DNA from: Tomocerus qinae
Taxonomy: Eukaryota > Arthropoda > Collembola > Entomobryomorpha > Tomoceridae
DNA: 64,000 nucleotides
Assembly: GCA_020055645.1 (NCBI GenBank)
Contig: CM034546.1
Coordinates: 33,604,001 to 33,668,000 of the forward strand
Reading direction: 5' to 3'
A model generated the notes under the pieces. That model searched no databases. It worked only from the letters and a program-made list of their open reading frames with translations, and was not told where the DNA came from. Numbering within the stretch: position 1 is the first letter of the stretch; every line of letters starts with the position of its first letter. Made by a program: the position numbers and the translations under genes. Shown here in pieces: positions 2,762 to 52,369 of this stretch.

Positions 2762-5069
2762 ATGATGAAAATGAAGTTTTTTTCGGGTTCGGTGATATTA
2801 ATCTTATCTTTTACTTCAATTAAAAATGTGCTCTCTGAATATCGTTTCTGCAACAAAGGACCACATGTAATCAGACCTACAGACTGTCCAGGAGGGTTCT
2901 TTTCTAAAAAGGAGATTCAACTTCAATGCTCAAACTACGCTAGAGATGAAAACGTTTCTTCGTAATAAACATTTTACTATGTAATCTTATCTATTCTTAG
3001 TTATTTCAGGGGAAACGTGAAATCTCATATTCAAAGCAAAGTTATTAATTTTAAAACATTGTTTTGGTTGGCCCAAACCTACTGATAATTTACAGGGTAA
3101 GAATAGGCGACGATATATGCGGCACCAGTGAAGGGGTAGATATGCTGCTCTCAGACAGCGGTGCAGCCGACATTTCAAGCGTAAGTTCTTTGCTTTTAGT
3201 AGTTGTTGAGAGGGGAGAAACAGGATTTAAAAATATTTTTTGTGTTTAATCGCCAGTTTCAATGGTTGAGGTTTGAAATAGGTGGTGATCAACCTGCAGT
3301 GCCTTGTAAGTATAAACGATTGCTTCTTTATCTCTTTATGGAAATGATAATTACAATTATCAGTGCGCACCGCTCTTCCAACTGTCGAGATATGAAGAAT
3401 AACTTTTCACTTTTGTAGCCACTGGAGCTTCACCTTGTCAAGATCAAGATTGTTTAAATAATTGGGAAGATCCGTTTCCCAGTGAGGAAGAACACGATGA
3501 TAAAACTCCTGCTCCGGATCCAAAGGTGGAAGAAGAGCAGAAGGAACAGAATAAAAAGCTTTTCTCCGAACTGATAGACGAGGATGATGAAAATCCATCT
3601 CCAGACCCTTTAGAAGAGGGATACGATGCAAGTGGATTTATTCGTCTGTACAAACTACTCGCACACTCCATGCGACTTATGGTTGAGGGTTGTGATGGAT
3701 TCGTCTCGGCACCCTTTTTCAGTCAAGTTCTCAAGGCTATGATGAGTTTATTGGACAAATCAAATAATACTCTGGTAGATATAGGTATTGCTGAGTTTGA
3801 CGTAATTGATAGGCGATTGAACAACTGTGCTAAACGCATAAGAGATAACAAGAAAGGATTCACTCTGGTTGGAAAAAAATGCAACAATTTGGCCAAGGTT
3901 TGTAAATATCATAAAATAATATAGTAAAAACCGAATTAGATCTCCCTTCCAAAATAACCCTCTCTACCTTAACTAATTTCTCAATTTTATAACACCAAAA
4001 AATACGCCATTGAATTAGCTGGAAAGGACAAACTATTATTCTCGTTGAAAGACAATATAGATTAGATTGAATTGTACAGTTTTTAGAATTTCATGGTTTC
4101 TTTTTTGGCGAAAATGAAAAACTATCATGAGTTCGGATAATGATTTTGCAGTGATCAAAGTTTCTAGTAAAATATTTGGTGCTAGCCATTCTGCTTTTCT
4201 TTGAAACTTTTTTATTTAACCAATATAGTCTCAATAAAAAGTCCTAAAGCTGTGAAAAGTAATTATAATTATTACATTGGTTAGGTTGAGGGAACTTTGT
4301 ATCCCGGAAAAACGGAACCTGTTCCTTACGGCTATAAGGCGAAATCTTTTCGATGGTATACTGTTGCGGACAGCCCAAAGGTAGGACCAAAATATGATCC
4401 TATAGTAGAAGCAGCTTGGGACGCGATTGACTTTGTTCATGGATTGTGCTTCACCAGTTTTGTGACCAATTTCAATTATCACCACATTTATGCAATAGCA
4501 ATGGAAGCACTCTTCCCGGAACTTCCAATTCAACAGAGATGGTAATTTAGCAATTCTAATCTCAAATGCCCGATGCTTTACAAATCAGGAAATACTTAAT
4601 TGAGGGAATATTTTCAGGTTGTATCCTGCTTTAGTCAAAAATGATGGTCAGTTTTGGAACAATGTACTACTAACGACAGATATAAAACAGACAATGAAGA
4701 ATTTAGATGCTTGCGCTATTGCCGCTTACAAACAAACTCCTTATCTCTTCAGACTAGATAAGCCATTTAATACAATGTCAGTGCAACTAATTTATATCAT
4801 GGTTACTCAATTCGATTTCTCTCCTATTAGCTTATTGTTTATTTCCTGCTTTCTATAGGGATACAAGTACTATCGCAGCATCTGCGGTCAATTCTTCTTC
4901 ATTAGGATGGACAGGAACCATTGATGAATATTGGGATTACTACGAAAAGAAAGGTGGCTTTCGAGCTGTATCAAGCTCGTTTGGGAATTGTGTCCAGAGC
5001 CGCAGTCAGACGGAGCAAGTTATCATGGGATATCAGAAAAGCTCCAGGGTCTTAATTTCTGAAATTTGA
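2762..5069 (+). CDS. Secreted protein of unknown family, seven exons, 479 aa
   Basis: Exons read as 2762-2961, 3096-3180, 3257-3305, 3419-3897, 4285-4541, 4618-4776 and 4859-5069. Every intron is GT..AG, all phases agree, and the exons sum to 1440 nt (480 codons with TGA). The start is the ATG at 2762, giving a short basic stretch and a hydrophobic core (SVILILSF), a good signal peptide with cleavage near residue 25. After it come a cysteine-bearing segment, a very acidic stretch at about residues 125-165 (EEEHDD, EEEQKEQ, DEDDE), then a more globular half with scattered cysteines and aromatic-rich stretches (YDPIVEAAWDAIDFVHG). I see no membrane anchor beyond the leader and recognise no family, so no function is proposed beyond secretion. 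A poly(A) signal aataaa lies near 5214. Exons 1-4 and part of exon 5 are duplicated at 46436-48067. Confidence 0.75.
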
Positions 5070-5384
5070 TTGTAGTGATTCGGGCTTCTCGTTTGTACCG
5101 GCAGACTCACTGTTCGAAACTCAGACAATTTTCATAGTGCAGCCTGTTAAAATGGGAAATCTGAACTTTCAACTATCATACTCTAGAAATTATATCCTCA
5201 ATATTAAGCAACAATAAAATAGTTTCATAAACCAATAATACTTTTTTATGTGAACATGTTTAGGTTGTTTCGGTAAAAGTAAATTGAAAATAAAGTTTTG
5301 TTTAAATTACTTATGAGATTTGAAATTGCGATTTAATGTACTGTCTATGTCTGTAATGTAACATCATTAAATATGCCTCATCAA
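5070..5384. other. 3' UTR and flank of the orphan secreted gene
   Basis: AT-rich with an AATAAA near 5214 that could end the upstream transcript. Nothing else is recognised before the LINE fragment. Confidence 0.4.
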
Positions 5385-5821
5385 AAATACATACTGTCCA
5401 AAAGCTAAAACGATATGGTTTTAGCGAAAGTGAACTTTTACATGCGTATAGATGCTATGTGAGACCAACACTTGAATATGCATGTGTAGTTTGGGGCCCA
5501 TCACTAACCGTGACGCTTAGAGATGACTTAGAAAATGTGCAAAGAAGGGCATTCTCAATAATTAAGGGACAGAGAATAACAGAATCTAAGTACGACCAAT
5601 GTTGCTCCCAATTAAATACAGAAAGGTTAGACCACCGTAGAAATATGCTGGTATTACGATTTGGCCTCCAAATAATAAATTCCGAGCGATTCAAGGATAT
5701 TTTGCCACCTTTCTATACGGTAGAAACTAGACAAACGAGACAATCCAAAAAGTACTTACTTAAACCCCTAGGGGCAAAAATTAAAAAAGGTATGAAAATT
5801 CGTCGATCCCCCAAATTGTAA
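5385..5821 (+). pseudogene. LINE reverse-transcriptase C-terminal fragment
   Basis: An open frame from about 5389 to 5821 carries YVRPTLEYACVVWGP, the 'RPxLEYxxxVW' block that follows the RT palm in jockey/CR1/L2-type non-LTR retrotransposons, then QRRAFSIIKG, as in their thumb/C-terminal region. The catalytic domain and the endonuclease are missing, so this is a 5'-truncated relic. GC-richer sequence to about 5935 (gtgcgtgacggacatc) may be its 3' UTR. Clade not determined. Confidence 0.7.
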
Positions 5822-5986
5822 CAGTACTAAATAATATGCATGACCAAGGTAAAATTCAGTCGGTCTCGCGCCTTCGTGCGTGACGGACATCAACAGAATG
5901 TCTGGACCGTCTCGAAAATTAAAAATATTATTTTATAATAATATTTCATAAAATTAACTGCTTTGCCTTTACTGGACATGCAGATT

Positions 5987-6029
5987 AACTAATGGATACA
6001 ACTGTCAAGGACAGTTGTATCCATTAGTT
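5987..6029. repeat. Perfect 20-bp inverted repeat with 3-nt loop
   Basis: AACTAATGGATACAACTGTC at 5987-6006 pairs without mismatch with 6010-6029; the loop is AAG. It lies in otherwise featureless AT-rich DNA 240 bp upstream of the two-exon gene. The rest of 5822-6270 shows no gene; 6111-6125 holds a smaller palindrome around catgcttaaaagcatg. Confidence 0.85.
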
Positions 6030-6270
6030 TACATATACATTTACATATCCTACATATAACATAAACTACACAAACAATAGAACTACACACAAATCTCTGC
6101 TCGAGGCATGCTTAAAAGCATGCTGATAAGAAGGCTGACATTTTCTTTTTCTCCAGGTAAGTACTAAAGTACAGGTAACGTGCATGGTAAGCACTCTCGA
6201 ATCACTACACTGAAGTTCTGTAAGACATTCGTCCTATTAAAAGTCTCCTCATCATCTTCAAAAAAAAACA

Positions 6271-7544
6271 ATGAAGTAAGTTTTATTTTAATTAGTATTA
6301 CTGATTTCGTTTTAATATCTTTATACATTTAAATCTTTAAAAATAATATTTATTTATGCTTAATCATGCACATATATATTCAGATTTACTACTCTGCTTT
6401 ATATAATAATCCTGAAATGAAATCTTATCCATGACATATCAACCACCAATAAAAGTGGTTAAAATCAAGCACAAGACAATTAATGTTATGTGGTATGTGT
6501 ACAATATTGTCTTTTTGCTGTTTTCTTATATATGCATAATCTAATCATTTTATTAGGCCCCCTGCTGGGAAAGTCTTAAGAAATCCGGAAGGCTTTGGAT
6601 CACTTACCGAAAGCTGGTCAGCCGAAGTCGAAGCCAATGAAGAAGAATTATTGAAGGACAACGATGAGGACATTGAGGTCTTACGCTCACCTGGCCTGTT
6701 ACGCTCCCCAGGTCTGTCAGATCAATTTGAAAGGAGCAAAATTGAAGACCCGATAGTGACACTAGCTGACCCAGACCCTCCTAAGGAAATTTTCTTTCCT
6801 ACTGGCAGTAACGAGTGGCAGTTGGTACACCGAAATAAACAAAGTAAGCTACAGAAGCAGAAAAATTCGACGCCTAAGGGGGATGCAGGCCTAATGCCTC
6901 CCCCTTCTGCTCCGAAGAGATCTGGTTCCAGAAAAAGACCAAATTCTACATCACCCCAAGACAGACCACCAATAAAAAAGGTTTCTAAGCCAGGCTGCGC
7001 CAATGTTACAATTACATTTAGAGCAGACAGTCTGGCTGAAATTCCACAAACTTTGGCTGAGTCTGTCAGGGAATACCTTGATATTAAAATTGGGGAGGAA
7101 TCAAACCTCCCTTTTGCAATTCAAATTGAATCGAGAAAAATCCTTGGAGGCCACATCATCTATTCATGTGCCAATACTGGCACTGCAAATTGGATCATTG
7201 CCAAAATCGACGAATTCCAACCAAGAGTTGACTGCTCGGAGTTACTCGAACAGCCCTTACAGGGATGGTTGAATGACAACTATAAACAAGCTGTCATCTC
7301 TATACAAATTTTCAATAAAAATGTCCCTAATTATATTGAATTCTTTTCCCAGATTGCCAAGCAAAACCCGGGATTTGAAGTAACATGGAAGTGGGTGGCA
7401 ATTCGTGCCATTCCATGTCCAAAAGACAATCCGAATTTTTTCATCTGCTACTTTCGGGTGGATGAGAAATGCCTTCTTTATTTAAGGGCTAACAATTGGA
7501 CACTATTTCATCTCTCTAGCTCCCTTGCAGTGAGAGAACGATAG
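6271..7544 (+). CDS. Two-exon gene, likely transposon-derived, DUF4780-like
   Basis: The ATG at 6271 is followed after five bases by a GTAAGT donor. The acceptor at 6555-6556 (ttattag) opens exon 2 at 6557, and the frame runs to 7544 (993 nt, 330 aa). Layout: acidic N-terminus (EANEEELLKDNDEDIE); a duplicated LRSPGL motif; a basic proline/serine-rich linker with KRSGSRKRP and PPIKK stretches that look like nuclear localisation signals; then a compact C-terminal domain of about 150 residues with a beta-rich pattern (IIYSCANTGTANWIIAKID) resembling DUF4780-type domains of arthropod transposon-associated proteins. That family call is a recollection of pattern, not a search. No RT or transposase follows. 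A poly(A) signal (aataaataat) lies near 7574. A host gene derived from an element is possible, as is ORF1 of a dead element. Confidence 0.55.
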
Positions 7545-10034: not shown

Positions 10035-10494
10035 ATTAGATTAGATTAGATTTATTTCATGTGTTTCTCGAATTTACATTCATTACACGAGTATTAAGTA
10101 TACATATATATTGTTGCTAATTATAATAAGATTTTTGAATCGCATTATGACATTTGACATAAGTTTAGTTAGCTAGTAAATGACATCAATACATATAAAC
10201 ACTATCCGCATTGGTTGATTGGCAATTCTATTTGTACTTTTTATAGTATAGTATGATATACGTATTATATATATATATACTATATGCTAGTGTTTATTGT
10301 TGCTTATTGATGACCCATGCACGTAGTTGAAGAGCCCTAGTAGTAGTAGTAGTAGTAGTAGTAGTTTATTTCAGATGATTTTGGCCAAAGCCTTTACATC
10401 GCATAATATGGATACAGTTACAATATAGTTTTGGCTAGTCTGAGATTACATAGTTGTAGTAGTAGTTATATTATAGTTTACAATTGCTATTTGT

Positions 10495-12477
10495 TTAGTT
10501 TTTACATTTCTCTGCATTAACCCAAAATGTATACAAAACATTCAGCTGATCTTTCGATAGATTTTTATATATATCATTAAAGCATAGTATATTACTAGTT
10601 ACTAGAGTTCCTCTTATATTATTATAGCATGGACATACAAACATAATATGTTCTATTGTTTCTTTTTCTTTAAGATCACAGAGTTCACATAGTTCATTTA
10701 TATCAGTGTTATAAAAATTTTTAAGAGAGTTTAGCTTTAAGGATTTATTATTTATTGTGATTTGATTGATGTTTGCTCTTAACTGAAAAAAGTGTCTTGC
10801 TAAATTCCAGGATTGGTTCCAATTAAGATATTCTTGGCTTAGAATGTGAGATTTATTGATTGAATAGTTTTTAAAAGTATTTGATAAGCGCATACATGAG
10901 ATATCTGAACTTTGAATATCACTATTAATATTGTAGAGTAACTTATTCACAGTAAAGTAGAAGTGCTTTCTTTCCCATATCTCTATATTAGTGTCTACAA
11001 AATTATAAATTTTATATTTATCGACAAGGTTTTTAAATTGAGTAAACCAATTATATTTTTCATTTTTCACAGAGGATTTTAATTTTAAAGTAATATAGCA
11101 TTGATATATCAAACTATCTTTAGACCGATTTACAATCTTTTGCCAAAAATTTAATACATTCTTTATCAAGAAGAGTTGGATAGGACGAACTAGAGTTTCT
11201 ATTCTTAGAAGCCATCTTGGTGTCCATGTGGGTACATTAAATAGTCTTCTAAGAAAGTTCATTTGGAATATCTCAAATTTTTCAAAGAATTTTAGACCCC
11301 AGATTGGTACACAGTATGTCATAACAGAGCGTATTAATGATTCAAATAATTTGTTATGACTTGAGAAAGTTGACGTTCTAGATCTGTAAAATAGTATAAA
11401 TAAAGCAGATAGTGCACTATTTGCTCTTTCTTTAAAGTATTCAAAAATCTTTTCCTGGTTATAGTGCCCATGGAAAGGAATTCCCAGGTATATATAAGAG
11501 TCTAGAACTTCAATTAACTCATTTTCCCAATACAGTTTTGGTACAGATTTAAGTGTTTTCTCTCTCCTATACACTACCATTTTTGTTTTACTGAGATTAA
11601 CCCTTAAACCATTGTCTTTTAGGTATTTAGCTAAGATATTAATTTTATCTTGCAAGTACACAGAATTTGTAGCTAGCAAGACAATATCGTCACTATATAA
11701 TAGGGCATGGATATTTAACTTTCCTAATTTAATTCCTGGAATACCAGAACTTTCAAGAGTTTCTATTAAGTCATTAATATATAGAGTAAATAATTTACTT
11801 GATAACGTTTCACATTGTAGAAGTCCTGTCCTTATTGGAAAGCAGCCACTTTCACCTTGATTAGTTCTAATCTTCGCTTTGGCATCAGAGTAGATGTTTT
11901 TGACAACTGAGATGAATTTGTCACTAATACCAATCACTTTTAACTTATTCCAGAGCTTTTTCCTTGACACTGTATCGAATGCAGAAGACAGGTCAACGTA
12001 GAGTGCAAATAACTTCCCTTTTTTTGCAGATATTGAATTCTGGATGATTGAGTTAAGGTTAAATATTTGAGTTTCACATCCAAGGCCAGGCCTATACGCA
12101 GCTTGATATTCGGTTATTTTTTTATTTCTTTCGCACCAGCCACTTAATCTATAGCTCATAATTGAAGTAAAGAGTTTTAAGATTGTATTGGCTAGGGATA
12201 TCGGACGATAGTTTTTTGGGTCGAGTTTGTCTGCTTTTTTGAATATTGGAGATATGACAATTTGTGACCAGGATGAAGGCGTCTTTTCTTGTCGCCAATA
12301 ATTATTGAAGCAGTCCAGTATGCATAGTCTAAGGTTGAGGGAGGAAATTTTCCAAATCTCATTAGGTAGTCCGTCTTCTCCAGGTGCTTTTCCGGTAGAC
12401 AGCCTCTTGACAGCATAGTTAAACTCAGTTAGATTTATTTCGTTATCTAATTCTTGAATACAAGTAGGATTGCTCAA
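10495..12477 (-). CDS. LINE B ORF2: reverse transcriptase and C-terminal region
   Basis: A 660-codon open frame. The RT fingers include KAPGEDGLPNEIW and FKKADKLDPKNYRPISL. Palm motif A is YVDLSSAFDTV, and motif C is LLYSDDIVLL (YSDD in place of the usual Y/FADD). The thumb and 'RSVMTYCVPIWGLKFF' block follow. A C-terminal CCHC-like finger, CELCDLKEKETIEHIMFVC, ends the protein near residue 625. Upstream the coding match continues in another frame to about 12620 (NCRKPAFWAALSHYRRK), so a frameshift near 12475 separates this ORF from the linker, and a TAA interrupts the linker near 12615. The first ATG in the frame is therefore not the native start. The endonuclease half lies at 17186-18094. 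Confidence 0.88.
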   Translation of the reverse strand: MSNPTCIQELDNEINLTEFNYAVKRLSTGKAPGEDGLPNEIWKISSLNLRLCILDCFNNYWRQEKTPSSWSQIVISPIFKKADKLDPKNYRPISLANTILKLFTSIMSYRLSGWCERNKKITEYQAAYRPGLGCETQIFNLNSIIQNSISAKKGKLFALYVDLSSAFDTVSRKKLWNKLKVIGISDKFISVVKNIYSDAKAKIRTNQGESGCFPIRTGLLQCETLSSKLFTLYINDLIETLESSGIPGIKLGKLNIHALLYSDDIVLLATNSVYLQDKINILAKYLKDNGLRVNLSKTKMVVYRREKTLKSVPKLYWENELIEVLDSYIYLGIPFHGHYNQEKIFEYFKERANSALSALFILFYRSRTSTFSSHNKLFESLIRSVMTYCVPIWGLKFFEKFEIFQMNFLRRLFNVPTWTPRWLLRIETLVRPIQLFLIKNVLNFWQKIVNRSKDSLIYQCYITLKLKSSVKNEKYNWFTQFKNLVDKYKIYNFVDTNIEIWERKHFYFTVNKLLYNINSDIQSSDISCMRLSNTFKNYSINKSHILSQEYLNWNQSWNLARHFFQLRANINQITINNKSLKLNSLKNFYNTDINELCELCDLKEKETIEHIMFVCPCYNNIRGTLVTSNILCFNDIYKNLSKDQLNVLYTFWVNAEKCKN

Positions 12478-12632
12478 AATGGGTTTTGAATGCAGATAAG
12501 GATGGTTGGGTTTTGTAATTGTAATTAGACTTCCTTCGATAATGTGACAGTGCAGCCCAGAATGCAGGTTTTCTACAGTTGGCTAGGTCATTAGTTAAAT
12601 TGTTGTAATATTCTTACAAAGCTATTTCCGCT

Positions 12633-12904
12633 TATAATTAAACCGCCGATTTCGCGCGCGCAGCGCGCCGGCCTACGGCCGGAAATGGCGTTATGAGTTC
12701 CGGTGCCCCGGGCGAAACCACTTCCTCCTCCTCCGGCTAAACGAATGAAAAGGGTTCTATTCTGCTTCGTAATTTTTTTTATTTTTTAAAACCGGTTTTT
12801 ATAACCAGTTCCGCGGTTCCGCAGTTCCGCATCTGTTCTTTCATGATCTTTGTATGCCGGAGGAGGAACTCAACTACAGTCTTAATAATACCGGAGGAAA
12901 GAAC
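12633..12904. repeat. Left viral terminus: ITR plus terminal hairpin
   Basis: 12721-12904 is the long ITR. Outside it, about 12646-12690 can fold as a cross-shaped parvoviral telomere: stem gccgatttc/gaaatggc, arm one GCGCGC-GCA-GCGCGC, arm two CGGCC-TAC-GGCCG. The GC content is far above that of the flanks. The hairpin is retained only at this end. Confidence 0.85.
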
Positions 12905-12920
12905 AGAAGTCAGTTAGTAT
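12797..12920 (+). promoter_or_regulatory. Candidate NS promoter inside the left ITR
   Basis: TATAAC at about 12800-12805 precedes the ATG at 12941, and tcagttag near 12911 resembles a CAGT initiator. As the ITR is symmetrical, the same TATA lies 140-150 bases before the capsid ATG on the other strand (about 17085-17090). A separate TATTAAAAG on the minus strand at 16972-16980 could also serve the capsid gene. Inference from position only. Confidence 0.4.
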
Positions 12921-12940
12921 CCAGCTATTGAACAGTCAAC

Positions 12941-14555
12941 ATGGAACGATTCTTTAGGCAAACTCATACCGGAGCAAGTTTCCATTCCCCGGCACCAAAT
13001 ATGGCGGGAGGTTGGTATCACCTTATAATACGCGCCACAACAGAACATGGTCCCATTGTTAATTACCGTTTCGAAGAGTTAACACATCACTTACAATTAG
13101 TTGTTGAACAATTGCAAAATCGACAAAATTATTTTTTGTTAGTAAAACACGTGTACACTCCGATTACTGATAACGTCAATCATTTCCATATTTTATATAA
13201 ACATGTGTTGTGCTGCAACTGACCACTTTTAACGCTTTATCACAAACAATGGCTTATCTGCAGTCTGGACAATCGTGGAATTCCCCGGCGGGTTGCGAAA
13301 GTATCTTCTTCAGGGAAACGGCAGAGAAGTATTATCGGAAACAATGTCCAGTAACCGATTACCACAACTCGAAGGAAACATTCCAGCTGAAACACTTTGG
13401 AAATGGGCAAATATGGACTGCAATGAATATTTCCATGGAGTCCCTTCCACCCACTCTATTGGAGAAGATTCGGGAGGTTCTTCAACTAGTGGACCAACTG
13501 CCGAAATATCGAGACCTAAGTTGGGAGGTCAAAAACCTTGCAGCATCTCCACCCATCTTTTTGGACTCATTAAGAAGTATCGAGTAACTGATTACAATCA
13601 ATTATCAAATCAAGTACATAAATGGGGAGATACTGATGAAGCGCAATGGTTACGTGAAGCTAGATTTGGTGTACAGAAATTTGAACAATTGTTTAATGCT
13701 GCTGCATTAGAAGTGCAATTAGAAAACAAAAGATTAACCTTTATGGAACAATTACAACTATTACCAGATAATAAAAAACACTTTCAAGAAAAAACAATGT
13801 CTATTAGCAAGTCTCATTATTGGATTAATGAAATATGTAAACAAAACACTATAAGTCTAAAAGCATTAGTAGAAGCAGTGTGGAATGTGGCTGATAAACG
13901 CATTCCAAAAAAAAACACATTATACTTTGAAGGGCCAACGACAACTGGCAAAACCTTTTTAGCTAAAAGCATTGTTAATGCAATAGGCTTTCCATTTTCT
14001 ACATCTACATTCAATAAGCAAACAAGTGAATTTTGTTGGCAAAACGGAATAAACGCTGGATGTATTGATTTAAACGAACCTTTATTCACAAGTGATAAAG
14101 CTGAGCAAATAAAAATAGTTATGGAAGGGGGACCATTACAAGTACCTGTGAAATTCAAATATGATGAAGAACTTCCCCGTACTCCAGTCATCATTCAATC
14201 TAATCGTCCGATATGGGAGTACTCACCCCACAATCGAGAAGCATTTAAAGAGAGGCTTTTTCAATTTAATATCACAGTTAAACTTCCAACAGCAAGTGAG
14301 ATTCATTCCTCCGAAAGTTATAGAAAAGTACCCAGTGGTCAAATTCATCCTAAAGTGTGGTTAACATTAGGAGAGAAATTCAGATTATTACCAAATGCCC
14401 AAGATGAATCAACATCCACATCAAGTACAAGCTGCAGCAATTTTAGTGGGAATGAGGAATTCTCATTGGCTGAGCCAAGATCACAAGGACAACAACGATG
14501 TGTTTCGCCACTTATTATTAATGGTAAAATTTATAACGTTTGTTTGTTATATTAA
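12941..14555 (+). pseudogene. NS1: Densovirus-like NS1 (HUH nuclease/SF3 helicase), frameshifted
   Basis: NS1 is the replication initiator, a rolling-hairpin nickase joined to a helicase. The N-terminal segment (frame from the ATG at 12941 to a stop at 13222) ends with NHFHILYKHVLCC, a histidine pair like the HUH metal site. Similarity continues in a second frame (about 13210-13290) and then in a third, 13275-14555, which stays open to the end. The helicase is complete by motif: Walker A GPTTTGKT (about codons 219-226 of the third-frame ORF), Walker B region GCIDLNEPL, motif C IIQSNRP, and an arginine-finger region NREAFKERLF. Two frameshifts therefore disable the nuclease part, while the helicase frame is intact. 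Consensus error is an alternative cause. Confidence 0.85.
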
Positions 14556-14574
14556 ACAGATATATAACATTATA

Positions 14575-15132
14575 ATGTATGATTTAGGCCTTAAAAGATT
14601 GCGGAACTCTACGATGGACGAGGAGAGTTCTGATGATGATGGAGCTTCTTTTGTCAACTACACCATCAATGGGGGAGAAAAAAGCGTTACGAAATCTAAA
14701 GGACAAAAGAGACTTAAGATGGCTGAACGTCATTTCGCACGCCAATTTGGAAGAACATCCGATAAATTGGAATGCAGCTCAATTAGAATCCCGAAAACAA
14801 AACCAACTGGAAAAGATCTTGGAATGCTCAAACTTATACTTGAGCAACAAAGAGAATGTTCAAGCGATAGACTTAGCGACGCCAGCCAACAATCATCCGA
14901 TCCCAATCATAATCAGCCAAGATGTAGTGAGACAACCGTTGACATCAATAATGAATTCCCCGACATTAACGAGATTGCAAGAAGCGAACCAAAATTACCA
15001 CATGATGATGGATCTGGAAGCAATACTTTAAATGATATTTCGGCAAATGACATGATTTATGATATGACTAATAATGTTGATATGCCATTGGATACTTTTA
15101 TTAATGATTTTTGTACTCAAATGTTTGAATAA
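14575..15132 (+). CDS. Viral accessory ORF after NS1 (unknown function)
   Basis: 185 codons from the ATG at 14575, 20 bases after the NS1 stop, ending just before the poly(A) signal. It has a basic middle (KSKGQKRLKMAERHFARQFG), an acidic start (MDEESSDDDG) and an acidic, Asn/Asp-rich C-terminus. No enzyme motif is seen. An overlapping plus-strand ORF of 132 codons (14633-15031) is also open; I cannot tell which is expressed. The position corresponds to extra NS proteins of densoviruses, but homology is not recognised. Confidence 0.5.
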   Translation: MYDLGLKRLRNSTMDEESSDDDGASFVNYTINGGEKSVTKSKGQKRLKMAERHFARQFGRTSDKLECSSIRIPKTKPTGKDLGMLKLILEQQRECSSDRLSDASQQSSDPNHNQPRCSETTVDINNEFPDINEIARSEPKLPHDDGSGSNTLNDISANDMIYDMTNNVDMPLDTFINDFCTQMFE

Positions 15133-15193
15133 TAAATAAAACAAAACATTGGGATTAGAATTCAAACAATTATAATTTTATTTATTTAACATA
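15133..15193. terminator. Convergent poly(A) region between NS and capsid genes
   Basis: AATAATAAATAAAAC just after 15132 serves plus-strand transcripts. TTTTATTTATTT just before 15194 is AAATAAATAAAA on the minus strand. Two opposed signals within about 60 bases are typical of ambisense densoviruses. Confidence 0.7.
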
Positions 15194-16936
15194 TTACATC
15201 ATTTCTGTATCAGTCGATGTTTCAGTATCAACATGATGTGTTATTTTAGCTACATCATGCACATGTTTATCTGGCATAGGTTTACCATGTTCGTCTTTAG
15301 CAGGTTTAGTTTCCAATATAATGTCAACGGTTTTATTTCCGCTTTGATCACGTACAGGCATTATTTCAACATTGACGTCATGATAATGAGGTTCAACGTC
15401 ACCATGAGCTATTCCAGTTTGAAGAACTCGTTTTGCTTCATCAGATACTTGATTTTTAGGTCGTAAAGTATAGCTTGCATCACCAACTAAATTATCTTCA
15501 TCAGTATAACCAAATTTAACGGCTGATTGCGGCAAATGTGCAATTTTTGTTAGTCCCCAGTGATGTCTATGCCAAGGAACAGTTGGAGTAGCCCCACCCT
15601 TTGGATAACCTGTTTCCACATCTACATTTGCATAGTATGTTTTCGGTTTGTGAATAACTGGTTTATCTGGTTTATCGTATAAATATAAGTCTTTAGCTGG
15701 CGTAGATGCATTGTAACTTTTTGTCAAGTATGGAGATATTGATTTTGTAAATCCATGTCCATGTGATTCTATGAGAGGGACACTTCTTGATGTTGCTGGT
15801 CGAAAGCCATCATACGAACATTCAACTTCTAAATGAGTTTCGATGGTTAATTCAATAACTATTTCTTGAAGACCACCATCCTTAGCTTTAATATTTTGAC
15901 ATCGTATCCAAAAAGGACAATTATGTTCCCGTTTCTGTTCAGAAGCGCCTGTATATAGGCCAACTAATGGATCCGTTAAACCATGAGGAGAATGAACATT
16001 CGGTCCTAAAGGATATTTATCAATTTCATCAGGAACTTTGTTTACGTTATGTATTGTTCCATAAGGTGTTATTTCAATGTCAGGTTTAGATGTAGTTAAT
16101 GAATCGTCGTATAAAGAAATCCAACGATTCCAACAAGCAATATTCCGTTTATATCCAACCAAAGAGTCTTTGGTATAAGTATCCATTTTATCAAACGGCC
16201 AAACAAATTCAGCATCCTTTTGACATTTTGTTCCGTCAGTTATAAATTCTCCAGTAAACATTTCTTGTGTACAAAAATTTGAAGAACGACATATTGTTAT
16301 AGCTTCATCATCTGTGACAGCTGTACTTTGATCAGCTTTAAGATATTGCCATTGTGGAAAGACGTAATGTGGATTTGATTGAATGTATATTTTTGGATTT
16401 ATACTTGTATAATTAGTATATTTAGTTGCACCATCTTCCAAACGTTGAGGATAAATTTCAACCGCCATGCATTCCCAACTTGCAGACTTAATATTCATCT
16501 GGGGAAATTTTTTCAAAAGATCAGCTTCGTACCCTGTTGTGTAGAACGATAAAAACCGGTCTGGGAAACCAAAAAATGCGGTTTTAATTGAAGATTGGTT
16601 AGTTCCAGCAGTCCATTTGCCATTATTCAAATTGTAAAACTTCCAAGTATTAATATGTGGAATAGAAAAATGTACTGTCGATGGACGTAAACTTTTTAGA
16701 ATTGGCATACGAAATGCCGCTTGAGCACCACCCATAGCTGAACCACCACTTGCTTTACTAACACTTGAAGATTGTTGCTCTAAAAAATCAGCGGCCTCGG
16801 CCATTTCTTGATCAGAATCAGGTTTATCCATTTTACTTTTTTTCTGTTGTCTAAAATGACTTATAATGCTACCACGCCTTTTTTGTTCTTCAGGTGATAA
16901 CTTTCGTTTAGAAGGTCCTGGTTGTTGATCAGACAT
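15194..16936 (-). CDS. VP: Densovirus-like capsid protein VP, 580 aa, intact
   Basis: Structural protein of the viral element. The start chosen is the ATG at 16936 (MSDQQPGPSKRKLS); the open frame extends further to 17047, but into the ITR. The N-terminus is basic (SKRKLSPEEQKRR, QQKKSK), a likely nuclear localisation signal, followed by an acidic Gln/Ser stretch and a glycine/alanine-rich segment (GGSAMGGAQAAF). The remaining 450 or so residues look like a jelly-roll capsid domain, with many short beta-like stretches (STVHFSIPHINTWKFYNL). I see no phospholipase A2 motif (no HDxxY with a calcium loop), unlike many densovirus VP1s. The C-terminus is hydrophilic and Asp/His/Lys-rich. There are no stops in 580 codons, in contrast to the damaged NS1. 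Confidence 0.85.
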   Translation of the reverse strand: MSDQQPGPSKRKLSPEEQKRRGSIISHFRQQKKSKMDKPDSDQEMAEAADFLEQQSSSVSKASGGSAMGGAQAAFRMPILKSLRPSTVHFSIPHINTWKFYNLNNGKWTAGTNQSSIKTAFFGFPDRFLSFYTTGYEADLLKKFPQMNIKSASWECMAVEIYPQRLEDGATKYTNYTSINPKIYIQSNPHYVFPQWQYLKADQSTAVTDDEAITICRSSNFCTQEMFTGEFITDGTKCQKDAEFVWPFDKMDTYTKDSLVGYKRNIACWNRWISLYDDSLTTSKPDIEITPYGTIHNVNKVPDEIDKYPLGPNVHSPHGLTDPLVGLYTGASEQKREHNCPFWIRCQNIKAKDGGLQEIVIELTIETHLEVECSYDGFRPATSRSVPLIESHGHGFTKSISPYLTKSYNASTPAKDLYLYDKPDKPVIHKPKTYYANVDVETGYPKGGATPTVPWHRHHWGLTKIAHLPQSAVKFGYTDEDNLVGDASYTLRPKNQVSDEAKRVLQTGIAHGDVEPHYHDVNVEIMPVRDQSGNKTVDIILETKPAKDEHGKPMPDKHVHDVAKITHHVDTETSTDTEMM

Positions 16937-16985
16937 TACGTAAATGATGAAAATGTAAACTTTGCTTAAACCTTTTAATACCCGA

Positions 16986-17185
16986 GTTCTTTCCTCCGGT
17001 ATTATTAAGACTGTAGTTGAGTTCCTCCTCCGGCATACAAAGATCATGAAAGAACAGATGCGGAACTGCGGAACCGCGGAACTGGTTATAAAAACCGGTT
17101 TTAAAAAATAAAAAAAATTACGAAGCAGAATAGAACCCTTTTCATTCGTTTAGCCGGAGGAGGAAGGCTTTGCGGTTTAATTATA
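16986..17185. repeat. Right viral terminus: ITR with hairpin lost
   Basis: 16986-17166 is the inverted copy of 12721-12904; I found no mismatch over the inner 165-170 bases, only one GGA-unit length difference. Outside it, a bare gcttt joins the ITR to the final 14-mer GCGGTTTAATTATA. The roughly 70-base hairpin seen on the left is deleted here. Confidence 0.85.
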
Positions 17186-18094
17186 GAACAATTTGCTGAG
17201 AAAAAACACAATAAAGGAAGAGCTTCTGGAGGTCTGCTAATTGGAGTCAAAAAACAATTACAACCTTTTGTAATCTCAGTTGATAAAGATGCGTACTATA
17301 TCATGATTAAACTTCGAATTGGATATGAAAATATAAAATTGCTGTTCATGTATATACCACCAGGAGCAGAATACGATTTTTCAGAAAATCTACCACTAAG
17401 CAAAACTACTGACGAAAACTTTATGCTGATTAATGACCTTAACTCTCGAATTGGAATTCAAAATTTGAAAAACAATAAAGACAGATTATCCATAGACTTA
17501 ATTGTTAATACCCGAGGAAAGGAATTAATAAAATATGCAAATCAAAACAATCTTAAAATATTTAATGGCGACGCACCAAGTGATAAAAATGGAGATTTTA
17601 CATTTATTAATATGAATGGCCAGAGTGTCGTCGAACCATCCATAACCACCAACGAAATCGCAGACTTAATACAAGATTTTATGGTACTACCAATAGCAGA
17701 ATACTCAACACATCTACCAATATGGATAACCTTGAACAAGCCTGAAATAAACTACACGCCTGATAAGATATGTCTCAGGACGATTAAGATTGAAGTTGAT
17801 AAAGCACAAAAGCTGCAGGATACAATCATAACTAAACTACAGACATCTCCCAACTCTAATGATTTTGAACATATTGAAAAATACATAAATGATGCTGCTT
17901 TAGAGTGCGGTTTAGTGAAAAAAAGAATACTCCCGTCAAAGCCCATTCTATACCCTAAATATTTTAATACTTTATGCCTTGCTAAGAAAAGAGAAGCAAG
18001 AAAATCTTATCAAAGATATGCCAGGGAGGGTTGTGAGACATCAAAAAGCTTGTACATATCGACTAAAAGAGACTATCAAGCATACAAGAACAAA
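17186..18094 (+). pseudogene. LINE B endonuclease half, inverted
   Basis: The frame is open from about 17189 to 18094 and carries the middle and end of an apurinic-endonuclease domain: KGRASGGLLIGVKK, then MLINDLNSRIG (the GDxN block, degenerate), then GDFTFINMNGQSVV. The terminal SDH motif is degenerate (YSTHLPIWI). A basic coiled linker follows (RKSYQRYAREG). It stops at the LINE B target duplication. The matching next segment of the protein begins on the minus strand at about 12630. The first third of the endonuclease is missing. Confidence 0.8.
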
Positions 18095-18106
18095 AGAGCC
18101 CTAGTA

Positions 18107-22902: not shown

Positions 22903-25900
22903 CTAGTCCCTTGTAGATCCAAGAGGTCCAGCCAAAACCATAGAGAGATAAAATATTAAATCCTCCTCCGTTGTCCTGTCCGGTGGCTCGTACGATATGG
23001 ACATTCCTTCATCTCTCACATCTTTATTTGAGAGGTAATGTAATTTTCCAGTAATAGTTACAGGAACTTCATTTTTTGAACACTGAAATTTGCATTTCAG
23101 GTTGACGTCAGGACTGTCTAGCTTCATGATGATGTGATGTTTTACCAGTTCGTCCGTGAGGTGAATGGGAACAAAGAACCCGATTTCAGGGCATTCCAAG
23201 GTGCCAACATTTTCTCCGGATTCGACCTTAGCGTAAACAACTAAATTCGCTCCCGGCCTGCAACTGTAACATCCGACCAATTTGACTACCTGTAGATAAC
23301 ATTTTGAATCGGATACTTGTTTGGTTAACTGCAGCTGATTTGTTGTTAATTGAATTTCCAGGAGCGTGTTGGTGGTGGATTGAAAAATTACAGAATCGCC
23401 TTCAGGGATCAAGACACCATCACCTAATTTTAATGGTAGGGCACTGTCTTCCATCAATTTATCTGGATTAATTAGGTCCGCAATGCAACGTGCCCCGCTG
23501 CTATCTGAGATAACTCTAACCAAATTAGCACTAGCAAAACAGCGGTTATTTAGGGATTTAGCGTCTTCAATACTGTCACACTGAACTTCTCCAAGCTTAT
23601 TGAGGGTTATCTCTTTTCGGCTGGAACAGGGAACTAGAGCTAGTATGCGACCCTTCGCTATTATACAGTGTCCTAAAACAGGGACATAGGGGGCTGATAC
23701 AGATATTAATTCGAAATTGATGTTTTCAATCGTTGTTGAAGATCCTGCATGAAGTGTAGTGACATTTTTGAAGATTTTCTCGCCTAGGTGGAAGGTTATG
23801 CTGAGCTGCACTGAGAATTTCCACTCCGGGCAGTCGTATACCGTATATACTTCATTTGTTGGATTTGCTAGGGATACGCGAATGAAATGGCAATCTCTTG
23901 TCAATATGAATGGACATTGAGGATGTCGGAGATCTTGACATGTGCTCCAGCCTAGATTATTTTTGGTATCCTTAAAAATCTTTATAGTATCATTGTTTCC
24001 AAATTCTTGACATTTATTTGCGTGACATTCGGAACTCGGATAGAGACTATAGCATTGTATAGAACTCTGACATTTCACTGCAGGCTTAGGAACGTAATAG
24101 AGAAGTTCTTTCATGCATTTTAGGGCTACGTATTTAGTTTCAATTGAGATTGTTCCTAAATGATTGGTGTGTGAATCTTGGATATTAAAACACGAAATTT
24201 GCTCAAGAGGGCTAAGAGCAAGTCGAGTGTTAAAACGAACTGAACACGTCGCCTTTGAATTTTCAGTGTAGTGGCACTCATGAGAAGCTGCCGTCATTGC
24301 TGCAAAATTAGAGCATCCATGGATCATTGTTATGATTAACAGTAGTGAACACAGGAAAAGTATCCTTGCTCCGGGTAGGTATTCTCGTCTACGGATGGTA
24401 GGACTCCTTCTTATTGCTCTTGAAATGGGACGTTGAGATGTTATCCGGATTTCATCCAGCGGAACTTCAACGTTTACAATGTTGTTTCCAGATTTCAATT
24501 TTCTAAGCAATATGATTTTGACACATTTTCGGAAGGGCCATATTATCCACTTAGCTAATGTTACCATAACTTTTGTGATGTAGGTAATTGTGATTATTAC
24601 TGTAGTTAGGCTGATTCCAACTATGAATATCACAAACCAATGGACGTAGGAATAGCAGGAAACATTTCCCCAACGGTCAATACAGAAGTAGCAATCTAGA
24701 AGTTGACAAATTGGAATGCGATTGCAGGTGATTTGTCGCTCGAAGGGGGGGTCAAAATCTGCAAACCATATTTCTACATGAATTATTCCGTTTGTAGCTA
24801 ACATGTTTTTCGTTAGCTTTAAGTCGGTTCTTGATGTTGCTGGCAAAATCGAAACGAATTCCGGATTCTTTTGGGCCTTGATGTATTTTGCTACTTCTCC
24901 AGGAGTGGAGATTATGATTCCATGTAAGCTACACACCAATGTGCACTTGTGACATGGATGTCTATTCTTGGTAGCACTTAGTCTTCCTTTTTGACTAGCA
25001 AATTCATGGTTCCCCAGCATATTGGAAACAATTCTTCACCTTCATATTGCAATTTGTGGAGAATTGAGGTAGCGTTGTAAGAGCAGGTGCAAATTGGTTG
25101 CAGATCATTGGAGCAGCCGATGTTATTGCAGAACTCACGGTCTCCTCCACACTCACCCAACTGGCAGTTCAAATCTTTGCACTGTCCCTTGCAAGAATAT
25201 GATGTGATGGCTTCCTTTTGTGAATCCTGCTGAATATTCAGTGTCGATATGACAAATATTTTGGAGTTTCCAATTATGACTGGAACCTCTGCAAAGTGCT
25301 CTGTATAATGCACACAATTTCTCAGTGTCAAATCGCCTATTGCGCAGAAATCGGACGTCAATTGATGTCTGTCAATGAATGTAGCGTCAAACTCCTTGTT
25401 ATGAGTTTGACATTCCAAATTGTCGAGGTTGACTTCTTCGAGTTTCGGACAGGGAATTGTTGGTTTGGTGCATGATCTTCCGTCTGGAGTGATTTCCATT
25501 TCATTCTCGCATGAATGAGTCCGGGAGCAGATTGAACCGTTGCTATAGATGTATATCCATTTTGCTGTCTTGGCACACAATGGAAATACATGATGAGTGT
25601 TCCACTTTAGCTCGCAAGCTGGGGCCTTCGTAGATATATTCGGATGTGGTTCGAATAAGGCGTTGGTCATGCTAAAGAGCATAAATAATATGATCGTAGG
25701 CAAAGTGAATTTGGCTGTCTTTGTTGTTTTAGGCCAACGGATCAGGGAAGTTATCAACATGAAGAGTATAGAGATTAGAAACATGGATAAAAATGACGTT
25801 GTTTCAGATCCATTGTGGAATGTTGAATTCTTTTGAGAAGAATTGTCCGCAAAAGCTGACCCAGTTGTCAAAATGTAAAAATGGAGTACTGTGGAGATCC

Positions 25901-25931
25901 AAATATACGACTTCGCTTTAACACCTCGCAT
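22903..25931 (-). pseudogene. env: BEL env: phlebovirus Gn/Gc-like glycoprotein precursor, frameshifted
   Basis: The env reading begins at the ATG at 25931, directly after an AG, with a signal peptide (WISTVLHFYILTTGSAFA). Here it is in frame with the upstream integrase, so splicing or processing would be needed. The first part (25931-24978) has two hydrophobic spans and many Cys and NxS/T sites. It overlaps in another frame with 25020-22903, which carries a double-spanning segment, an internal signal-like stretch (LFLCSLLLIITMIHG) and a Cys-rich ectodomain with GCYSCRPGANLVVY, resembling the phlebovirus G2 region. The C-terminal anchor is not in this frame: the ORF stops at 22903, and a hydrophobic segment (FIIILFALVITISSV) lies in a shifted frame just downstream. 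Two breaks make it non-functional as read. Kinship to bunyaviral glycoproteins is inferred from the Cys pattern. Confidence 0.65.
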
Positions 25932-27367
25932 CTTGCTTCTACTTTCACTTGATGCGTGATTTGTTACCGAAGGTGGGCTATTACCCTGCACCACTGGAGA
26001 CTCTTCGATTGGGAGTTTGGCCAATTTCACAATTGGACGAACGAATTCCTTACATTTTTTCTGCAACTTTCCATTTCTGTCAGTATATGACCCTTCAGTT
26101 TCTATTGTAGTGACCCGGACCAATCCGTCTTTGCCAGGGTGAACATTTTTGACTCTGCCGAGCCTCCACTTCATTGGAGGGAGGAGATCTTCCATAACCA
26201 ATACCATGTCCCCTGTTTTCAAGTTCTCTTCGACGCTTTGCCACTTGTTACGTTTTTGCAATGAAGTAACAAATTCTTGATTCCATCTCTGCCACAGTTC
26301 TTGGGTACGCCGCTGAACTAGCTGAAACTGATTTAGCCGATTAAGTTTTAGGTGTAGCAAATCGGCTTCTGGGTGGAACGTAAGGGATGTTCCAATCAAG
26401 AAATGAGCCGGAGTTAAAGCGTCGAGATCATGAGGGTCTTCAGACATGGGAGTCAAAGGTCTTGAATTGACTATGCCTTCGATGAACGTTAGCAACGTTG
26501 AAAATTCTTCCCAATTGTAAACGTCGTGGTCCATTATTCGTTTTAGATGATTCTTTATGAGTTTTACAGTGATTTCATAAACCCCTCCGTGATGTGGACT
26601 TCTGGGGGATTGAAATGCCATTGAACTTTTTCAAGATCGATGCCAGGTAGAATATTGTCTGACGATGCTTGAATATTTCGAATATCTTGTTCCATGATAT
26701 TGTTAGCACCTACGAAATTCAGGCCATTATCGCTGTAGATATGACAAGGCATTCCTCGTCTTGAAACAAATCGGCGGAAAACTAAAAGAAATCCTTCATG
26801 TAAAAGCATTGAAGCAATTTCCATATGAATGGCCCGCGTGGCCATGCATGAAAATACGCTTATCCAAACTTTGAATTTTCCAGTTTCTCTTCCGGAGAAG
26901 TTTTTAAGCTGATAGGGCCCAGCAAAGTCCACAGCAGTGTTTAAAAATGGGCGGGAGATATTTATCCTTGCGGATGGAAGCTGGCCCATTAATTGCATTT
27001 TCGGTTGGGCCCGATATCTGAAACAAATTAGGCATTTGTCGAGTACACTTTTTATTGATTTGGTCGCAGAGGGTATCCAATATTTTGCACGGAGATGATA
27101 TGCAACTGTTTGTTTTCCTGCATGAGCCAGTTTGTAGTGTTCATGCATTATCATCGAACGAATTAAAGGATGATTTCCAGGAAGCAGAATAGGATGCTTG
27201 GCATCATAATTCATTTCTGCGTTCAGCAGTCTTCCGCCTACACGAAAAATTCCTTCGGTGTCCTTGAAAAGAGAGAGAGTCCGAAAATGATGAAGTTCAT
27301 ATTCAGCTTGTTTTTTGTTTACGTTTTCTTTGGCAAAACTGTGTCTCCTTCTGGATAAGAGAAGCAA
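25932..27367 (-). pseudogene. pol: BEL integrase, two frames
   Basis: 27367-26564 holds the zinc-binding N-terminus (HYKLAHAGKQTVAYHLRAKY, then KCLICFRYRA) and the first two catalytic Asp (VDFAGPY and YSDNGLNF). The third acidic residue (PHHGGVYE) is in the next frame, 26621 onward, so a frameshift near 26600 splits the core. A DUF5641-like C-terminal domain follows (KTGDMVLVMEDLLPPMKWRLGRV), where BEL integrases end, and the frame then runs on into env. It inserts the cDNA into the genome. Confidence 0.88.
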
Positions 27368-27482
27368 TCATTCGTTCTGATTTACTAAGTTCTGATGGAG
27401 TGGCTAATGGCAAGGCTTGGCCTTTGAATGTCTTACGTCGCACGACTCTTTGGACCAATGTCATGACATTAATAGCTTTCTT

Positions 27483-28748
27483 CTATGACGAGATGTTGGC
27501 TAGCTTCTGGATTACTGTGTCTTTCGATACTGTAACTGCTGTCACGGACGATATTTTCTTTTCTTCCTTGCGGTCAAAATCCGTTGTGGCAGTCGATGGT
27601 ATGAAAGCCTTGAGTGGATGATCAAGTTTATTTAACCATGGAGGGCCAGTAAACCACAGTGGGTGGCAGTGAAGCTCCTGAGGGTCTAATCCTCTTGAGG
27701 CACAATCTGCCGGATTATCTTCCGAAGATACATGTCTCCATTGCTTAACAAGAGAAATCTCTTGAATTTGGTTGATTCGATTTGCCAAAAAGATCTTCCA
27801 TTTTTGTGGTGAGGAGTTAATCCAGTTTAGAACAATGGTGAAATCACAGTGGTAGTGAACACTGGACAAATTTGGAAGCTTCCAAACATCTTGGACGTGT
27901 TTCATTAGCTGAGCTAGGAGGACTGCTCCTTGCAGCTCCAGCCTTGGTATAGTCATAGTCTTAAGTGGAGCGACCCGAGTCTTCGCCATGACCAATTGAC
28001 AGGAAACTTTCTTGACAGGGTCAGATTGGTCGTACTGACGTAGATATACTGCGGACGAGTAGGCCTTCTCACTCAAGTCACAGAACCCGTGTAGTTCGTA
28101 CACGTGGGTGGAGGAGTTTGATTTATGATTAAAACTCCTAGGGATTAGGAACTTCTGGAGTTCGGGCAGATTGGAAGCAAACGTTTGCCAAGAAAGGAAT
28201 AACGTGAGAGGGAGTGGGTCGTCCCAATCCAATTTCTCTTTTTCCATCCAGATTAATTGCATGAGAGCCTTAGCCTTTAAAATAACAGGAGCTAGGAATC
28301 CCAAAGGGTCAAAAATCTTAGATATTTCTGATAAAACGAATCTTTTCGTGACTTTCTCGCGTTGCCACTCAGTGGGAAGGTTAATTATGAAGCGAAAATC
28401 GTCGTGTCTTGGATTCCATTGGAGACCCAATGTTTTGATTGTAGGATTTTCTTCGATTGGTAGGCTTAATCTGGTTTCACAAAACTCTTCAGGAATTGTG
28501 GCTAACAATTTTGCGGAGTTGCTAGACCACTTACGCAATGCAAAATGGGCTGTAGCAAGCATTTGAATTAGCTGCTCCTTAGCTTCGATAGCTTCTTGTT
28601 CATTTTCCACGCTCAATAATAAATCGTCGACATAGAATGAGGTTTCAATGATAGCAGATGCCACCGGAAAACGGTATTGTTCGTCTTCGGCGATTTTGAG
28701 AAGCGTTCTGCATGCGATGAAAGGTGAAGAGCAAATTCCAAAAGGCAC
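27483..28748 (-). pseudogene. pol: BEL RT (C-terminal part) and RNase H
   Basis: Begins MPFGICSSPF with the catalytic FYVDDLLLS (YVDD) at about residue 37. The Pao-type RNase H region follows (HGFCDLSEKAYSSAVYLR, NWINSSPQKWKIF), with WRHVSSEDNPADCASRG near its end. The frame breaks at 27483; coding similarity continues in another frame to about 27370 before the integrase. The first part of the RT is at the end of the preceding ORF (28819). Confidence 0.88.
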
Positions 28749-28818
28749 AGAGGTGAGACGATAATGAAGAAGAGGTTCAGCAGGTGATTTTCGCCAAAGA
28801 ACTCTTGCAAAATCACGT

Positions 28819-31800: not shown

Positions 31801-32043
31801 TTCCCCTAATTGTAAGGTGGAACTATCATGGACTTCAGATTTGACTGGTAGTGGCTGTGGGCTTCCCTCCGATGAGGAAGAGCTGGGTTGTTGAGTGACA
31901 GGTTGTGTGGCCTGCCGCTGAGCTCGAAGTTGACTTCGATATAAGTCTTCTGATTGCACCCAAGATTCCGGGGACGGTACAGCACCTTGTTGTCGAGTAC
32001 GTCTTCTGGGTGGGTCGTCGCCTGATGGCGGTTCGTCACTCAT
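28819..32043 (-). CDS. gag-pol: BEL gag, protease and start of RT, 1074 aa
   Basis: The ATG at 32043 starts a Pro/Ser/Arg-rich region with four near-repeats of SPxQSPRRTPSPP (residues 150-190). Then comes the DUF1759-type BEL gag core (KLKIPKFNVPYFSGIHNEWP) and a Ser/Arg-rich stretch. CCHC knuckles follow (CPCCQSSSHRLNQC, then CYNCLGPH and CQICHNKHH). The retropepsin has DCGSHDSF as its active site (usual DSGS). The RT N-terminus (KLRVVFDASAKT, MTADVKKMYQ) ends at a frameshift near 28830, and RT continues in the frame of 28748. It encodes the structural particle protein and the enzymes. Confidence 0.9.
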   Translation of the reverse strand: MSDEPPSGDDPPRRRTRQQGAVPSPESWVQSEDLYRSQLRAQRQATQPVTQQPSSSSSEGSPQPLPVKSEVHDSSTLQLGEDLPVTIRVGGYLKSLFWGTTESVKPEDTAAEQEEDSEREKRDQERESDTEFLGQPPSQPPSPTANDSPSPPPQSSRRTPSPQQSPRRTPSPPQSPRRTSPPPHSSTPPRSSTPPRPPPIITMTTPAQKTHTDEHNALAARVEVIQNAITDHDAGTSVLTPTTAEIYLEDVVTLKPEIARQQANCFKLFANVTDPTTGDNPQLIARNTHETLNSAFLAVRVRMTDLTKSFNTSTVTSKLKIPKFNVPYFSGIHNEWPTFKSNFNTLITSNATFSNTEKMRLLIDALKDSDAKGNISDQVTDGNWTIAWDRLLARYDSPREIAHSAIRPLLELPTLMSQSEAGLHKLISTVRTTRAQLALIPKGTVTEAEILYLHFIMARLDNKTIQEFNHSLPNNNVPSLDTCILFLEKHAKNLGLTKEIKSSATPSSSSKPPRSRRDIHEHRILLASSGDTTDGRSSSEHSGASSRSSVNSFSTSNKRKRSRNRSRKKSVSFSSKNSKNSGKGHASSSDPPRKESGSVRTDSPSREQKHKCPCCQSSSHRLNQCPRYKEMSVSERRAFVKQNKLCYNCLGPHMISQCKSTHTCQICHNKHHSSLHVEMTGSGSTTTHQRQHNSTIQHSLTPPKGKLLPTAIVRFHNDGRIIDGRSLIDCGSHDSFITKELAEKLRLHITPDGQQFNVAGGNAIASLGKSTVHVVSIVDANKHFYIDAYVLSEITSALPCQPFGVESYTHIHGLDLADPNFNIPGSIDALFGIAMVDAIFDPEEMQKVQGPPGTPSAILTSLGYIILGELKPTKKAILTTSTAPQKTTSEFDLEKFWKVEELPAIKLLTPMEQFCEEYYLKTTTRLPNGMYEIKWPFIENVTVLGNSLKAAYQRWFSTERQLAKNPALAREYHDQLQDYLDLNQMELIPAAEVKKTYRVYYIPHHAVVKPSSTTTKLRVVFDASAKTTSGISLNDILAPGPTIQPELADQLLKFRLKTVAMTADVKKMYQRSPG

Positions 32044-48748: not shown

Positions 48749-48771
48749 GATAAATAAATAAATCAATAGAT

Positions 48772-51925: not shown

Positions 51926-52052
51926 CAGGGTTGGCAGTTATTTCACATTTCAATGACTCTGACTCAACAAAAGCTGAAGTGAAATATTTCGCGAAATGAA
52001 GTCCTTTATTTCTCCATTTATTTCAAGCGAAATATTTCATTTGCCAACACTG
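51926..52052. mobile_element. Small hAT-like MITE, 127 bp
   Basis: Ends CAGGGTTGGCA and TGCCAACACTG, flanked by GATATCTG (51918-51925) and AATATCTG (52053-52060), 7 of 8 identical. The interior repeats gaaatatttc words. 52053-52369 holds nothing else. Confidence 0.75.
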
Positions 52053-52369
52053 AATATCTGGCACCACCTGATTTTTAGAAATATTATAACTATAAATATA
52101 TAATGTTTTATGGGTATTATCACTACTACAGACTGGTATTCAGAAACCGAGCGCGGATCTTCCCTAAATTACTAAAAATAGAGAATTTTTGATTAAAGTA
52201 AGACAGTGGTTAAAGAGGTGGAGGTTTAAAGTGAAGTGAGAGGAGTCAGGCGAACGTCGGTGTAGGTGGTCTATATAGGTTTAAGGTGAAAGTAAAAATG
52301 AATAACTATTTTCTTCACAGTTGCTCTTCAACTTTTCACTTAGTTCCGAACTAAGGTACATCATCAATG

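Follow-up and report, generated by a model that had tools for sequence, protein, structure and literature searches.

We analysed a 64,000-nt stretch of the genome of the collembolan Tomocerus qinae (C1:33604001-33668000 in an assembly of 334 Mb and 115 contigs; hereafter, the window) and confirmed that a parvovirus-like genome lies at the inversion seam of a young, twin-primed long interspersed nuclear element (LINE), referred to here as LINE B. Because the virus is placed where the two halves of the inverted LINE meet, this nearly complete, small parvovirus-like DNA virus was probably trapped during the insertion of LINE B.

Twin-priming geometry of LINE B

The breakpoints within LINE B were placed by alignment with two full-length colinear copies of the element (L053 and L054; 99.6% mutual identity over 4214 nt). 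The 3' half, representing the non-inverted complementary DNA (cDNA), lies on the minus strand at 10343-12615 and contains the reverse transcriptase domain (RVT_1, E 1.1e-29); a (CTA)n tail, as read on the minus strand, occupies 10343-10365 at its 3' end. The inverted 5' half (918 nt) lies on the plus strand at 17177-18094 and shows a weak endonuclease match (Exo_endo_phos_2, E 0.0068) that is below the curated cut-off. In reverse-complemented L053 coordinates, window positions 17177-18094 correspond to 3896-4813, and window positions from 12615 back to 10343 correspond to 4821 to 7121; only 7 nt of LINE B (4814-4820) are thus absent at the seam. This 7-nt spacing and the opposed orientation of the halves fit the geometry of twin priming. 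The two halves are not joined directly, however. Positions 12616-17176 are non-LINE sequence, and the locus is therefore a variant of a twin-primed insertion.

The twin-priming arrangement had been proposed in an initial annotation made from the sequence alone, and the alignments to L053 and L054 bear it out. As that annotation had advised, other LINE B copies were consulted for the internal breakpoints, and it is these two copies that place them 7 nt apart. Both inner boundaries had to be corrected: the 3' half, which had been extended to 12632, ends at 12615, with non-LINE sequence at 12616-12632, and the 5' half, which had been started at 17186, begins at 17177, with 17177-17185 being genuine LINE sequence. 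The 5' end of LINE B is short by approximately 988 nt, resembling an ordinary 5' truncation, which prevents a judgement on misplaced or lost LINE sequence on that side. In addition, the 3' half lacks, at 12466 and approximately 150 nt from the seam, 50 nt that are present in both full-length copies.

In genome-wide tables of the orientation of LINE B halves, which give lower bounds, both halves are colinear in 13/13 other loci listed with both (3 at >=94% identity and 10 at approximately 65-72%). The window copy is the only one with opposed halves among the loci so listed, and no second inverted LINE B is present among the 13. A virus-free copy with the same inversion, which the initial annotation had named as contrary evidence, is accordingly not found among these loci of one genome.

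A single target site duplication around the whole block

The tailed 3' half adjoins one target site duplication and the inverted 5' half adjoins the other, the two copies of AGAGCCCTAGTA being located at 10331-10342 and 18095-18106. The duplication is 12 nt long, or 13 nt if the A preceding both copies is counted. Both flanks of LINE B belong to another repeat, here named LINE A. As paralogous empty sites we fetched six LINE A copies whose matches to the left and right flanks abut without gap or overlap; copies whose alignment ends were a few bases short were left out of this set. The target site is single and uninterrupted in all six, confirming that one outer target duplication is shared by the two halves. 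The LINE-virus-LINE block is therefore one insertion in its outer anatomy. As read by eye, L053 and L054 are each flanked by their own duplications, and these were compared with that of the window, three copies being too few to define an endonuclease cut motif.

Joints between LINE B and the virus

At the right joint, LINE sequence runs unbroken through TTAATTATA (17177-17185), and the same 9 nt match the outer left end of the insert in inverted orientation. The 14-nt block GCGGTTTAATTATA, which ends at 17185 (17172-17185), recurs inverted at 12633-12646. An inverted identity of this length between the outer ends was obtained in none of 2000 shuffles, the longest in shuffled sequences being 11 nt. 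Searched on both strands, the two LINE pieces and 12656-17165 contain no further occurrence of the 9-mer. Between the right inverted terminal repeat (ITR) arm of the virus and the LINE lie 12 linking nucleotides (17165-17176). The left joint, in contrast to the 9 nt shared at the right joint, shares no bases and has filler of 17-26 nt; the 17 non-LINE nucleotides at 12616-12632 may be either filler or outermost viral DNA. Two sources of the filler were tried and were unconvincing: the viral body offered at best a match of 10-11 nt (p 0.06 and 0.075 in shuffles), and the ITR tip an imperfect match of 13 nt with p 0.025 against the ITR alone and 0.655 against the whole body.

The only direct repeat flanking the virus that could be seen by eye at the joints is TTAA (12638-12641 and 17177-17180), which lies inside the 14-nt inverted identity. 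The independent duplication around the virus that the initial annotation had considered contrary evidence was thus looked for and not found. Shared bases at one joint and short filler at the other are what is expected of filler capture, with the limit that the viral ends themselves are not independently fixed. Both joints look like products of microhomology-mediated or templated end joining: either the virus ends in the 14-nt block and was joined by 9-nt microhomology, or the left joint was copied from the right. The 9-nt share and the inverted 14-nt block suggest that the two joints were closed together or via like ends.

Structure and affinity of the viral element

The termini of the element comprise two inverted 179-nt ITR arms (12726-12904 and 16986-17164), which are 100% identical. 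Only the left ITR carries, in addition, a hairpin-like GC-rich tip (12642-12725). The predicted fold of the left end (12610-12910) contains this tip as a branched hairpin (z -2.17, with 1/100 shuffles of the whole stretch folding as well), and that of the right end (16980-17190), which is without the tip, is not clearly better than those of shuffles (z -1.32, 24/200 as good). The identical arms and the left-end fold thus supply the hairpin-forming inverted terminal repeats expected of a parvovirus-like genome. The earlier description of the virus as present 'terminus to terminus' is nearly correct, although the right end is without the tip and the true ends are not fixed.

The NS frame on the plus strand contains a Parvo_NS1 domain (Pfam, E=4.1e-20), and the SF3 helicase of NS1 matches the Rep chains of adeno-associated virus (AAV), itself a parvovirus (E 1.1e-11). 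The amino-terminal NS1 frame (12932-13222, plus strand) contains a His-x-His motif that was recognized by eye and is a candidate nickase-like (HUH) motif. This frame ends at 13222, and the remainder of NS1, containing a tyrosine-motif-like stretch, also recognized by eye, and the SF3 helicase identified by profile searches, lies in a different frame (13233-14555, plus strand). NS1 is therefore broken between the His-x-His and the tyrosine/helicase regions. A small intron between the two frames is a possible alternative; if the frame is truly broken, as the sequence suggests, this viral copy would be a fossil. A third open frame (14371-15132, plus strand) had no Pfam match at E 0.001. A 617-aa open frame on the minus strand (15194-17047) occupies the position of the capsid gene, giving the element an ambisense layout. 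No relative of it was detected: there was no Pfam match up to E 1, the best PDB match had E 0.92, and 0/6662 candidates from the protein collection were retained at E 0.001 in a search that reaches only relatives sharing short exact words. Four weak protein relatives of NS1 are listed (29-35% identical, with 29-35% of NS1 covered), and none was found in the IMG/VR scan or in phage records. No transposase domain was detected in the viral frames scanned with Pfam.

The element can thus be safely labelled as parvovirus-like with an ambisense plan. The name densovirus-like used earlier is upheld in this broader sense by the Parvo_NS1 match and the ITRs, but assignment to a genus is not supported. 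Like the endogenous densovirus and parvovirus elements of invertebrates, it has an NS1 with an SF3 helicase, inverted terminal repeats, an ambisense organization and a size within 4-6 kb. Unlike them, it has a distant NS1 and a protein in the capsid position without a detected relative.

Copies of the virus elsewhere in the genome

Genome searches covered the ITR arm, the NS DNA, the NS1 profile and the VP region. The only matches to a 200-nt query from the right ITR were the two arms of the element itself, and the NS DNA and the Parvo_NS1 profile each gave a single genome match. One more relative of the VP region, a partial one, lies on C4 (G000:C4:7365886-7367641; L068); it is the equivalent of window positions 16335-16949 in two pieces of 94-95% identity that are split by tandem-repeat DNA. 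No LINE B was found in the 3.7 kb read around this fragment. From this relative, the virus lineage seems to have entered the germline more than once. The earlier suggestion of finding the same virus elsewhere with a duplication of its own was thus realized only in part: a relative exists, but it is a fragment without termini, and the viral ends are not fixed by it. A repeat-rich region of the window (48760-49561) also matches the DNA that splits the C4 fragment. The idea of a retrotransposed LINE-virus composite was set aside, as there is no second copy of the ITR arm, the NS DNA or the NS1 profile.

Ages of LINE B and the virus

With gaps excluded, the window copy of LINE B differs by private substitutions at 10 of 3137 positions, or at 3 of 2909 when one cluster is set aside; the corresponding totals for the two full-length copies, counted over the same columns, are 6 and 5. 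Judged from these substitutions, the window copy is young. A per-lineage divergence of 0.1-0.32% gives a probability of 0.70-0.32 that the ITR arms would show no difference (0/179 observed). Therefore, the virus and the LINE may be of one date, in a test that has little power to separate dates.

Formation of the locus

One event is favoured by the exact empty sites, by the one duplication around the outside and by the youth of the LINE. We propose that LINE B would have entered a LINE A copy by twin priming, in which both target strands primed and two facing cDNAs were made, and that the free cDNA ends would have left a gap resembling a break. Into this gap a parvovirus-like genome, present in linear form in the same germline nucleus, would have been joined as filler, over the 9 nt common to LINE and insert (TTAATTATA) on the side of the inverted half and with 17-26 nt of filler on the other side. 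The whole block would thereby have become enclosed by one target duplication. That the virus and the LINE were inserted concurrently, whether by end joining or by reverse-transcriptase copying, is very likely, and the proposal of capture during completion of the LINE, made in the initial annotation, is supported to the extent that the outer duplication, the empty sites and the young LINE allow from anatomy. The more specific reading, in which the virus was captured as filler when the twin-primed cDNA ends were joined by microhomology-type end joining, is probable, with somewhat less assurance; we infer from the same anatomy that end joining, rather than the LINE enzyme, made the joints.

Capture of a linear viral genome at a twin-priming gap would combine steps that are already known. 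Passages of PMC2912911 describe twin priming as the priming of one LINE RNA by both target strands, followed by joining of the cDNAs, with shared bases common at the joints; they also state that L1 intermediates can constitute double-strand breaks, which are believed to be healed through end joining. According to the parts of PMC12016303 that concern inversions, inversions account for 18.4% of L1 insertions in the human germline; out of 287 such inversions, 132 have ends within 20 bp, and the cDNAs overlap in 54 of those 132. The present locus resembles such human insertions in its one duplication, tailed non-inverted 3' half, inverted 5' half and breakpoints a few nucleotides apart, but differs in that approximately 4.5 kb of viral DNA separates the halves. 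The capture of AAV and other DNA at breaks, including AAV inserts at induced breaks, is described in sections of PMC2567098 and PMC9237045. The locus shares with filler capture at double-strand breaks (of nuclear mitochondrial sequences, AAV or plasmid DNA) the foreign linear DNA, the shared bases and the short filler; the difference is that here the break, lying between two cDNA ends, seems to be an intermediate of retrotransposition. Hepatitis B virus integrations and twin priming are treated as separate subjects in the relevant portions of PMC8082928. Among the matches listed from open-licence PMC papers, none joined twin priming with a captured virus, and none combining twin priming with a parvovirus was found.

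An alternative form of concurrent insertion is that the provirus was synthesised by the LINE reverse transcriptase itself during twin priming, the enzyme having moved from the 3' end of the second cDNA (ending TATAATTAA) onto a single-stranded viral DNA template, by extension of that end or by a jump. Over 9 nt, the inverted-half cDNA has at its 3' end the same sequence as the outer end of the insert, like a primer on a template, and template jumping has been proposed for non-LTR enzymes in passages of PMC2912911. We nevertheless consider this route unlikely: the other joint has no shared bases and contains the 17-26 nt of filler, and approximately 4.5 kb of hairpin-ended DNA would be demanding to copy. 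Its simplest version, template jumping through the virus from a single primer, was rejected, because such a jump alone cannot yield a 5' half in the opposite orientation.

The virus could also have arrived after twin priming was complete, in a LINE that until then was virus-free, hitting the seam either by chance or because the site is fragile; insertion at TTAA would be one form of this. TTAA is indeed present directly on both sides (12638-12641 and 17177-17180), but its duplication leaves the 14-nt inverted identity unexplained. Another LINE B copy (L055, C1:138567500-138577400) carries an unrelated 2.6 kb insertion within approximately 15 nt of the LINE position that ends the inverted half, and cDNA overlap and 5' truncation could hide a loss of LINE sequence at the seam. 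The left edge of the virus must, however, lie no more than 7-26 nt from where the 3' half ends, a placement with a probability of 0.5-1.7% if insertion is random within the LINE, and the very young LINE leaves little time for a second insertion. Furthermore, the scanned frames contain no transposase domain, and the ITR arm, NS DNA and NS1 profile reveal no other complete copy. Later integration is thus very unlikely. That viral reads were wrongly joined into the LINE insertion during assembly is most improbable, even though the seam is known from the assembly and not from reads and ITR hairpins are prone to misassembly, given that around the insert the breakpoints of the LINE, its tail and the duplication fit together exactly, that NS1 is frame-broken and that the 94-95% identical VP fragment on C4 indicates that the virus lineage did enter the germline.

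Several points weigh against capture by end joining during twin priming. The private substitutions are unevenly distributed between the halves (7/917 in the inverted half and 3/2220 in the 3' half; Fisher p 0.009), the seven in the inverted half being clustered in 228 nt (17432-17659); a variant source RNA and clustered errors are candidate causes of this cluster. Because twin-primed cDNAs can overlap, the 7-nt gap may leave room for a later loss from the 3' half, and the insertion in L055 possibly marks a fragile spot at that LINE position. The 9-nt match could be a viral end or copied filler, the termini lacking an independent reference. Densovirus DNA transfected into insect cells is described in parts of PMC5978394 as integrating in scrambled form, unlike the intact block here. 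Finally, the basis is a single assembly, representing one haplotype of one genome.

Other features of the window

A BEL/Pao-type element lies on the minus strand at 22903-32043, with a Pao peptidase A17 domain, an integrase zinc-binding domain, DUF1759, DUF5641 and a weak aspartyl protease match below the cut-off. The Phlebovirus G2-like glycoprotein frame at its 3' end (E 4.1e-63) marks it as an envelope-bearing retroelement. The region 52001-53000 shows an extreme GC skew (-0.685) and includes a 272-aa open frame (52367-53185) with no Pfam match. Genome-wide, (TTAGG)5 gave 235 + 296 overlapping matches and its reversed control 0, the listed places being scattered along C1; such an abundance of this repeat is reminiscent of arthropods.

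Implications for viral endogenization

Germline entry of non-retroviral DNA viruses has mostly been inferred from decayed copies. The locus described here is young and nearly complete and is bounded by a mechanistically understood insertion for which several empty sites exist. A broader proposal would be that twin-primed intermediates naturally offer DNA viruses a way into the germline. In the present case, 9 nt at the 3' end of the second cDNA would have paired with the viral terminus, and the provirus would have been built in one event by the retrotransposition complex itself. We regard this as improbable, though it deserves mention. At the strength set out above for capture during LINE B insertion, the locus connects the endogenization of a virus with an intermediate of retrotransposition, and it would offer an unusually clear snapshot of a DNA virus joining an animal genome. 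It also provides a searchable and falsifiable signature for other genomes, namely foreign DNA on a twin-priming seam.

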